A program made the translations under genes and the position numbers. A stretch of DNA of 64,000 nt from Planctomyces sp. SH-PL14 (GTDB lineage Bacteria > Planctomycetota > Planctomycetia > Planctomycetales > Planctomycetaceae). Positions 16,003 through 60,138 of this stretch are shown here, piece after piece (the stretch's first letter is position 1; each line of letters starts with the position of its first letter). Below the pieces are notes generated by a model. The model saw only the letters and a program-made list of their open reading frames with translations, was not told the origin of the DNA and did no database searches. The stretch covers positions 1,054,001-1,118,000 of the forward strand of contig NZ_CP011270.1 of assembly GCF_001610835.1 (NCBI RefSeq), given 5' to 3'.

Positions 16003-16554
16003 ATGTCGTCGCACGCAATTACCGAAGTCATTGTGAACCGGATCCTCGTCGTGGAAGACGACCGGGCCGAAGCGGACTTCCTCAAGACGTTCCTGGGACA
16101 GAAGAAATTCGCGGTCGATCTGGCCCGCGACGGCGGCCAGGCGCGGGCCGCGTTCACGATGCACAAGCCGGACTTCGTCCTGATGGACGTGATCCTGCCG
16201 CACGAGGTCTCGGGCTTCGAGATCTGCGAATGGATGAAGTCCCAGTCGGACACGATCCCGGTGATGATGCTCACGGCGATCGACATGGACGACTCCCGCG
16301 ATCTGGCGCGGCGGGTCGGCGCGGACGGCTACATGACCAAGCCGTACGATCCCGACGAACTCGTGAAGTCCATTCACGACGTCGCGAATGCCCTGTGGGC
16401 GAAGCATCACCTGGGCGCGACTGACACGCACGAGGTCATCAGCTTCGCCTGCCCCGAGTGCGGCAAGAACCTGCGGGTCCAGTCGAGCTACCGCGGCCGG
16501 ATGCTGAACTGCTCCAAGTGCGGGCAGCACGTGCAGGTTCCTCGGTCGGCTTAG
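16003..16554 (+). CDS. Response-regulator receiver fused to a zinc-ribbon-like tail
   Basis: 183 aa. The receiver (about 12-130) has acidic D19-D20, phosphoacceptor D62 (VLMDVILP), T91 and K113 (MTKPYD), so it should be phosphorylatable. There is no DNA-binding output domain. Instead, residues 145-183 form a CPxCG...CxxCG pair (C150, C153, C170, C173) like a short zinc ribbon, which may bind a protein or nucleic acid. A GTG at 16033 (VNRILVVEDD) is an alternative start. No histidine kinase is adjacent; the only kinase in the window is at 58.3 kb. Confidence 0.88.
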   Translation: MSSHAITEVIVNRILVVEDDRAEADFLKTFLGQKKFAVDLARDGGQARAAFTMHKPDFVLMDVILPHEVSGFEICEWMKSQSDTIPVMMLTAIDMDDSRDLARRVGADGYMTKPYDPDELVKSIHDVANALWAKHHLGATDTHEVISFACPECGKNLRVQSSYRGRMLNCSKCGQHVQVPRSA

Positions 16555-58323: not shown

Positions 58324-60027
58324 TCAGCTGCCGGAGAGCGACTGCCGCTCGGGGAACTCGGTCGTCGCCGCCGGCGCGTCGACCTCGTCTTCGATCCGCG
58401 GCCAGGTCAGCCGGAACAGGCACCCCTGTCCGGGCCGCGTGTCGACGGTCAGCTCGCCGCCGTGCTCCCGCAGGATCTTCTGCGTGACGGCGAGGCCGAG
58501 CCCCGTCCCCTTTCCTCCCTTGGTCGACTCGAACACGTTGAACAGCCGCGGCAGCTCACTCGGTTCGATCCCCGGTCCGTTGTCCTTCACGTCAACGACG
58601 ATCCGCTCCTGCACCGGGTCGTACGCCGTCCGCAGGGCGACCTCACCGTGGTCGCTCCCTTCGAGGGCGTCGAGCGCGTTGCCGACGAGGTTCAGCACCG
58701 CGCGGTGGATCCCCTCGGCGTCGAACTGGGAGATGGGCATCGCCGGGTCCGGTAGGTAACTCAGCCGAATCCGGGACTCCTCGGCCCGCCCCTGCATCAG
58801 TTCGACGACCTCGCCGACCGTCTGGTTGACGTTGGCCGGCTCCAGCTTGGGCTGCCGTTCCTTGCTGAACGTCAGCATGTCCATCACGAGGTTGTAGATC
58901 CGGTCCTGGTTCCGTTCGAGGATCCGCCACCCCTTCCGGACGACGTCGTTGTTCTCCTCGTTGAGGCCCATATCGATCAGGTAGCTGCCGCCGCGGATCC
59001 CCTGCAGGATGTTTTTGACGTGGTGGCTCAGCGTAGCGATGGTCGTTCCGACCGCCGCCAGTCGTTCCGCCTTCACGAGCGATTCCTGGTACCGGTTGTT
59101 TTCGACGGCCAGGGCGGACTGCCGGCCGATGGCGGCCAGCAGGTTCAGGACATCTTCGTTGAACCGCTGGAGGGCGCGGCCGGGGACGAGCGGAGTTTCG
59201 ACGGTCGTGGTGTCGACGTAGATCACTCCCATCAGCTCGTAGCGGCCCTGCATCGGGACGCACATCGCTTCGCGGATGCCGGATTGAAGGATGCTGTGCC
59301 CTTCGTTGAAGCGGGAGTCGTGCTGGGCGTCGGTCGTGAGGACGCCGATGCCGTGGCGGATGACGTACTCGACGATGCTGGTCGAGATCGGCATCTTCTG
59401 GGCGACGTCGACGCCGGGGCGGTGGCTGATGACGCGGGGTTCGATGCGGTCGGTGCGGCTGTCCGCGACGAGCATGCAGCCTCGGTCGGCTCCGAGAGCC
59501 TGGAGCGTCAGGTCGAGGATCCGCTGGAGGAGCTGGTCGAGGGGGACGGAAGGGCGGACCGCTTCCTCGGAGATCTTGTAGAGGAGCTGGAGGTTGGCGC
59601 CGGCGTGGGCCCGATTGGGGGCGATGAGTTTGGAGGCGGGGAGCTGGCCGACGATGCGGGAGCGGTCCCCTTCTTCTTCGCGGCGGAGGAGGTTGATCTG
59701 CTCGGCGACGCGGCGGCGGGGGAAGGGGGAGGCGACGCCGCGGAAGAGAAAGATGGTGCGGCCGACCTGGATCTGGTCGCCGTTGACGAGGCCGTGTTCC
59801 TTGATGGGCTGGCCGTTGACGTAGGTGCCGTTGGAGCTGCCGGCGTCGCGAAGGAGCCAGTCTCCTTCGTCCTTCTGGACGAGGAGTGCGTGGGAGCGGG
59901 AGACTTCGGTGTCGAGAATGCGGACTTCGTTGGTGGCGCCGCGGCCGATCCAGGCGGGTGGATCGTGGATTTCGAATTGTCGCCCCTGGTCAGGCCCCTG
60001 GATGACGAGGAGGGTGGCTGCAGACAC
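58324..60027 (-). CDS. FHA-GAF-histidine kinase
   Basis: 567 aa. FHA domain (about 5-95) with GRGATNEVRILDTEVSRSHALL and DAGSSNGTYVNG; a GAF domain (about 160-315); then a histidine kinase with the phosphoacceptor region LAAVGTTIATLSHHVKN and ATPase boxes LVGNALDALEG, DNGPGIEPSEL and GGKGTGLGLAV. No transmembrane segment. It would receive a phospho-threonine signal plus a small-molecule signal. No response regulator is adjacent; the receiver/zinc-ribbon protein at 16.0 kb is the only one seen. The GTG at 60027 (VSAATLLVIQG) is the likely start. Confidence 0.88.
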   Translation of the reverse strand: MSAATLLVIQGPDQGRQFEIHDPPAWIGRGATNEVRILDTEVSRSHALLVQKDEGDWLLRDAGSSNGTYVNGQPIKEHGLVNGDQIQVGRTIFLFRGVASPFPRRRVAEQINLLRREEEGDRSRIVGQLPASKLIAPNRAHAGANLQLLYKISEEAVRPSVPLDQLLQRILDLTLQALGADRGCMLVADSRTDRIEPRVISHRPGVDVAQKMPISTSIVEYVIRHGIGVLTTDAQHDSRFNEGHSILQSGIREAMCVPMQGRYELMGVIYVDTTTVETPLVPGRALQRFNEDVLNLLAAIGRQSALAVENNRYQESLVKAERLAAVGTTIATLSHHVKNILQGIRGGSYLIDMGLNEENNDVVRKGWRILERNQDRIYNLVMDMLTFSKERQPKLEPANVNQTVGEVVELMQGRAEESRIRLSYLPDPAMPISQFDAEGIHRAVLNLVGNALDALEGSDHGEVALRTAYDPVQERIVVDVKDNGPGIEPSELPRLFNVFESTKGGKGTGLGLAVTQKILREHGGELTVDTRPGQGCLFRLTWPRIEDEVDAPAATTEFPERQSLSGS

Positions 60028-60138
60028 ACGGGCACCTGGTACGACCGAACTTGGGGGTGGAGGTGAGTTTGCTCCGCGGGACGAGGCGAATGGATGATAC
60101 CGGGCGGGTGGGCTTCGCACACGGGTGCGACGTTCTCC

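Follow-up and report, generated by a model that had tools for sequence, protein, structure and literature searches.

The question raised by this locus is what a receiver protein may do when its receiver domain is followed by neither a DNA-binding nor an enzymatic domain. The window, i.e. the whole stretch of 64,000 nucleotides of the Planctomyces sp. SH-PL14 genome that was analysed, contains one open reading frame at 16003..16554 (plus strand, from ATG to TAG) that encodes a protein of 183 amino acids. The Pfam model Response_reg (PF00072) spans residues 14-124 of this protein (16042..16374, plus strand) with an E-value of 4.9e-25 and 88.3 bits against a cut-off of 30.2, and the receiver domain was also recognised in the AlphaFold2 model and by Foldseek. 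The receiver active site is full, with an acidic pocket of D19 and D20 followed by D62, T91, and K113; the last three stand in the 183-residue translation where the first-pass annotation of this DNA had placed them. The receiver domain and its active site are shared with OmpR/PhoB, CheY, and PleD, but unlike in these proteins the output is a C-terminal four-cysteine ribbon (residues 146-181, 16438..16545, plus strand), whose knuckles are C150/C153 and C170/C173 by position count on the translation. Neither a helix-turn-helix nor an enzyme domain was found C-terminal of the receiver among the best 25 of 42 Pfam families, and only the ribbon follows in the model. Both thus agree with the earlier description of the output as a ribbon of these four cysteines that is neither DNA-binding nor enzymatic. 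No NCBIfam family exceeded its cut-off among the best 25 of 112.

The AlphaFold2 model, built from 44 sequences, shows the receiver and a separate ribbon with a mean pLDDT of 91.2 and a pTM of 0.70. The receiver ends as a long helix (117-136), after which the four strands of the ribbon follow (145-149, 156-160, 167-169, and 176-178). Several zinc-ribbon Pfam models gave weak matches within residues ~135-181, and none passed its cut-off among the best 25 of 42 families (the top one was PF13248, with 21.8 bits against 27). With two cysteine knuckles and a small beta fold in the predicted structure, the region may be called a zinc ribbon in the general sense, and its cysteines are predicted to hold zinc. 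When the whole model was used as a Foldseek query, mostly ordinary receivers were returned among the matches listed; by sequence, the receiver is also nearest to ordinary receivers.

The family set comprised 52 distinct rows including that of the window (obtained from 80 hits by merging identical rows), two of which stop short of the ribbon, L064 because of an in-frame stop and L116 because of a contig end. The first-pass annotation had made its reading of the ribbon depend on the conservation of the cysteines in homologues. This check was run and the reading withstood it: all four cysteines are present in 50 of the 50 distinct rows that reach the ribbon (the window's included), although receivers that had lost the whole ribbon would be under-counted here because the searches that gathered the rows favour full-length matches. 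Among these 50 rows, 19 have CXXC as the first cysteine pair and 31 have CXC. The acceptor aspartate is less constant, as position 62 holds D in 37 of the 52 rows, E in nine, G in three, and S, K, and Q in one each. Replacement thus affects 15 of 52 members at the acceptor and 0 of 50 at the ribbon cysteines, so the cysteines are better kept than the acceptor aspartate. Position 91 is T or S in 52/52 rows and position 113 is K (49) or R (3), and Y110 and P114 are invariant. PF00072 was matched at E ≤ 0.01 in all 44 rows of alignment A1, which holds 44 of the 52 receiver-ribbon rows and leaves out L064, L116, and six natural fusions treated below; another alignment, A3, was a hand-picked set of 53. 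At least six changes of D62, fusions counted, are seen on the family tree, which was midpoint-rooted and has mixed basal support. Aspartate-less receivers are known (PMC4395418), and the 15 members without the aspartate, all six fusions among them, resemble these, unlike the window protein, which keeps D62 and so does not belong to that class. One homologue, at L064:1468-1902 on a contig shared with L006, has its in-frame stop before the ribbon and still has the FHA gene described below downstream.

The range of the gene is narrow. With a profile of 44 rows (E ≤ 1e-32, at most 8 candidates scored per genome in the phylum searches), the full-length protein was found in 21 of 392 phylum genomes, its own included, and these 21 are among the 28 genomes of the bacterial family of the window, against 0 of 364 others. 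A single-sequence search returned the same 21 phylum genomes. In the seven genomes of the family without the gene, the profile was never matched past position 157 of 182 among the matches listed. The gene was also present in 27 of 59 relatives. In a collection of named genomes, 26 loci were confirmed, of which 15 match over the receiver only, whereas in the other 11 the match extends over 169 or more residues of the query; each of these 11 is labelled Planctomycetota or with a genus or family of planctomycetes. Among the genomes searched, the receiver-ribbon family occurs in one planctomycete family only.

The gene neighbourhood offers a partner. At 43 homologous loci from 40 genomes, a gene for a small FHA protein follows on the same strand after ~14-458 bp in 37 and is fused to the receiver-ribbon gene in four. 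The remaining two are L078, which is cut by a contig edge, and L070 in genome G412, which is without an FHA gene. By BLAST over 31 relative loci, the FHA gene was downstream on the same strand or fused in 30 (29 separate, 1 fused), and the 31st, L096, is itself a fused form that is too degenerate for BLAST to pick up. The two sets share genomes and thus are not independent samples. In SH-PL14, the FHA orthologue is encoded at G000:C1:7314243-7314830 (minus strand), 6.2 Mb from the receiver-ribbon gene, and its product is 47% identical to the FHA protein of L085; RsmD, often found in this neighbourhood in relatives, is at 1760050-1760652. The pair is unlinked but retained in SH-PL14, and this genome is the exception. 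The SH-PL14 FHA gene directly follows, on the same strand, a Glu/Leu/Phe/Val dehydrogenase gene (PF00208; L112:9232-11865, ~7.314-7.317 Mb). GarA of Actinobacteria, an FHA protein, is a regulator of glutamate metabolism (PMC12321487).

Within the window, the receiver-ribbon gene is flanked upstream by an AMP-binding enzyme on the other strand and downstream by a CxxCxxCC protein. These neighbours were rejected as functional partners, as no open reading frame in 4001-28000 falls into a family common to at least four loci, the receiver-ribbon gene and the opposite-strand frames overlapping it being excepted. A defence system was also considered and set aside: the PADLOC matches of the receiver-ribbon protein (SduA, 2.2e-6, residues 11-68) and of a fusion were weak and partial, and the FHA partner had no PADLOC match at 0.001.

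Co-occurrence points in the same direction as linkage. In the joined sample of 433 genomes (phylum and relatives), the FHA partner (E ≤ 1e-42) was detected in 39 of the 41 genomes with the receiver-ribbon gene and in 4 of the 392 without it. The procedure favours this outcome, since the cut-off was placed once a gap in the E-values (1.6e-50 to 2.4e-38) was known, and most of the sequences behind the FHA profile come from genes next to the receiver-ribbon gene. Here too, the phylum searches scored no more than 8 candidates per genome. Inside the bacterial family of the window (f1), the proportions are 39/41 vs 4/12 (Fisher 2e-5, a value that ignores phylogeny). The exceptions among the 41 are G400, which has the fused form only, and G412; in G401, the partner match covers 150 of 190 positions. 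The four genomes with the partner and without the receiver-ribbon gene are G257, G373, G392, and G407, and in G257, G373, and G407 the order is CsrA-HU-FHA-RsmD, running from HU to FHA with no receiver-ribbon gene between.

Of 50 FHA hits, 41 partners were aligned (A2) over the FHA domain and the tail; four fusions, the histidine kinase of the window, the truncated L010, another FHA protein (L004:7563), and the near copies L052 and L054 were left out. The phosphothreonine pocket R27, S41, H44, and N63 is invariant in all 41 partners. In and after a variable linker lie three conserved stretches: D120 (37 of 41), I122 (41), W125 (39), and L126 (41); D136 (37), T137 (39), and T138 (30); and E180 (41), A181 (39), I185 (40), and H188 (35). 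The second is a DTT followed by I or V in 23/41 partners, and a looser [DE]T[TSA][IVT] occurs in 33/41. This arrangement recalls the FHA switch of GarA and OdhI in Actinobacteria, in which the ETTS motif of GarA contains two threonines (PMC12321487) and both proteins bind their own peptide (PMC6733907). The likeness lies in the full pocket and the conserved DTT of the partner, whose threonine-rich stretch is reminiscent of the self-binding peptides known from GarA, OdhI, and DgcB (PMC6733907), and in the fused FHA, which matches both structures. Unlike in GarA and OdhI, the putatively phosphorylated DTT (136-138) is C-terminal of the FHA domain (23-87, Pfam) and not before it, the conserved tail is long, and a receiver-ribbon protein accompanies the partner. 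On the curated OdhI family NF041660, the partner reached 34.8 bits, below the cut-off of 200.

Seven loci from other families of the class were inspected and contain weaker FHA orthologues with similar tails; in these families, the phylum search did not find the receiver-ribbon gene. The FHA protein thus does not require that gene and is probably the older of the two. Most of the seven (L150-L155 and L158) have a stretch resembling Asp-x-x-x-Trp-Leu and, at the C-terminus, a short helix-like motif.

The two proteins also occur fused. Six fusions in six genomes (L114 in G315, L115 in G405, L101 in G411, L118 in G413, L096 in G400, and L117 in G408) carry an FHA-type domain in addition to the receiver and the ribbon, together with one or more extra cysteine-pair regions; Pfam FHA is over its cut-off in all except L096. 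Five of the six genomes also have the unfused gene. On the midpoint-rooted tree, the fusions branch deeply as paralogues. The L114 model (pLDDT 83.4, pTM 0.74) had GarA and OdhI among its PDB matches over ~95 columns in the fused FHA part. In the fusions, D62 is replaced in 6/6 (E, E, E, K, Q, and S), and the FHA pocket keeps R27 in 1/6, S41 in 2/6, N63 in 0/6, and H44 in 6/6. On the unfused side, D62 is kept in 37/46 receivers (replaced in 9/46) and the whole pocket in 41/41 FHA proteins. Loss of D62 and of pocket residues in the fusions is what is expected if a covalent link had replaced a phosphate-controlled one. On the other hand, the fusions stand on deep branches, so the losses may be one event, the fusions may simply be decaying, and H44 has not been lost in any of them. 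Zinc-binding and FHA modules are likewise joined in one protein in ArnA of the ArnA-ArnB pair of Sulfolobus (PMC6509490), but that zinc module is a RanBP2-type finger, its partner ArnB has a vWA domain, and the portion of the source available mentions no receiver.

We hypothesize that the receiver-ribbon protein is an adaptor working with the small phosphothreonine-reading FHA protein, and we place the probability of this reading at about 55%. The partnership itself is well supported at the level of sequence. For the rest, we infer D62 phosphorylation, physical binding, DTT phosphorylation, and a downstream effect. A histidine kinase would phosphorylate D62, and this would alter the association of the receiver, the ribbon, or both with the FHA protein. 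The conserved Arg/Ser/Asn pocket of the latter would serve to read phosphothreonine, and the FHA protein may bind its own DTT stretch once this has been phosphorylated by a Ser/Thr kinase. In this way, His-Asp and Ser/Thr signals would converge in the pair. The phosphorylation-controlled adaptor of the first-pass annotation is still the best reading, and the homologues add a likely partner in the adjoining or fused FHA protein, while its control by the aspartate cannot be general in a family with 15 of 52 acceptors replaced. The D62 losses in unfused members suggest that phosphorylation is dispensable in some lineages. G412 counts against the adaptor model, as this genome (98% complete) has the receiver-ribbon gene with no FHA gene in the 1183 bp downstream of it in L070 and no partner elsewhere at E ≤ 1e-42. 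A more specific version, which we regard as possible and put forward tentatively, is a two-input gate. The Asp-phosphorylated receiver-ribbon protein would dock on the old FHA protein and switch it, the threonine signal possibly being the FHA protein's own DTT site; fusion in one paralogous branch would have made the complex permanent, and the phosphate sites would then have decayed.

An alternative is that the ribbon is a nucleic-acid-binding output of a transcription or RNA regulator and the FHA gene a bystander in an old housekeeping cluster of CsrA, HU, and RsmD. Zinc ribbons commonly bind nucleic acid, and this one has many Arg and Lys residues. Moreover, clustering of the 31 relative loci placed RsmD on the same strand further downstream in 20, and CsrA and HU are among the neighbours in 11 and 9; RsmD was named through TIGR00095 over its cut-off, and CsrA and HU were recognised from sequence by eye. 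The FHA gene, adjacent or fused in 30/31, nevertheless exceeds all three, even though several of the loci are cut by contig ends that remove some of these neighbours, and the six fusions link the receiver-ribbon protein to FHA. A ribbon similar at E ≤ 0.1 occurs in 16 other places of the SH-PL14 genome. Eleven of these were inspected (L138-L148). In 10, the ribbon lies close to the N-terminus of a protein that is otherwise unrelated, and by eye most of these proteins have membrane stretches; at the eleventh, L145, nothing was read. This suggests a general docking module, with which nucleic-acid binding would still be compatible. Taken together, we consider the bystander explanation unlikely. 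A non-coding RNA between the receiver-ribbon gene and RsmD was likewise rejected, because the gap contains the FHA gene instead; at the Rfam gathering threshold, the hits were three tRNAs across 7 loci and a single one within the window.

It is less probable still that the protein acts as a single-domain-type receiver whose ribbon serves only for stability or as a tag, or as a sensor of metal or redox state, with a partner unrelated to FHA. The kinship of the receiver to ordinary receivers, the short linker, and the invariant cysteines would fit such a protein, but this would not explain why its gene adjoins, is fused to, and co-occurs with the FHA gene.

The first-pass annotation had also pointed to an FHA-GAF histidine kinase at 58324..60120 (minus strand; FHA, GAF, and HATPase_c pass their Pfam cut-offs and HisKA narrowly misses its own) as the only histidine kinase of the window. 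It is indeed the sole one, as 1 of the 70 HATPase_c matches of the genome falls there (G000:C1:1112396-1112722). That the receiver-ribbon protein is its dedicated response regulator is very improbable: the kinase shares the window, and its FHA domain is 40% identical over 94 amino acids to the FHA partner of L085, but it is 42 kb away, is one of 70 HATPase_c matches, and is present irrespective of the receiver-ribbon gene (58/59 relatives, i.e. 32/32 without and 26/27 with the gene), being absent by this search from G402, which has the gene. The kinase is therefore not singled out by these data; it is a candidate and nothing further. With one match in each of 58 of the 59 relatives across the class, it is a candidate core kinase of the group.

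No description of the receiver-ribbon family or of the FHA pair was found in literature titles and the beginnings of abstracts, with subscription journals and preprints outside this scope, nor in the available portions of PMC5847659, PMC6509490, PMC6733907, PMC4395418, PMC11032199, PMC4558063, and PMC12321487. Pairing with the FHA protein suggests a role for the otherwise unnamed ribbon. If the adaptor reading and the partnership hold, aspartate and threonine phosphorylation can meet in this pair, and a gene that adjoins or is fused to a phosphothreonine reader in relatives suggests a link between two kinds of phosphate signalling. The His-Asp and Ser/Thr phosphorylations have mostly been studied as separate systems, and the planctomycete phylum is rich in both histidine and Ser/Thr kinases. 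A conserved pair, together with natural fusions joining a receiver to FHA, would give a small and defined place in which to study how both phosphorylations meet.
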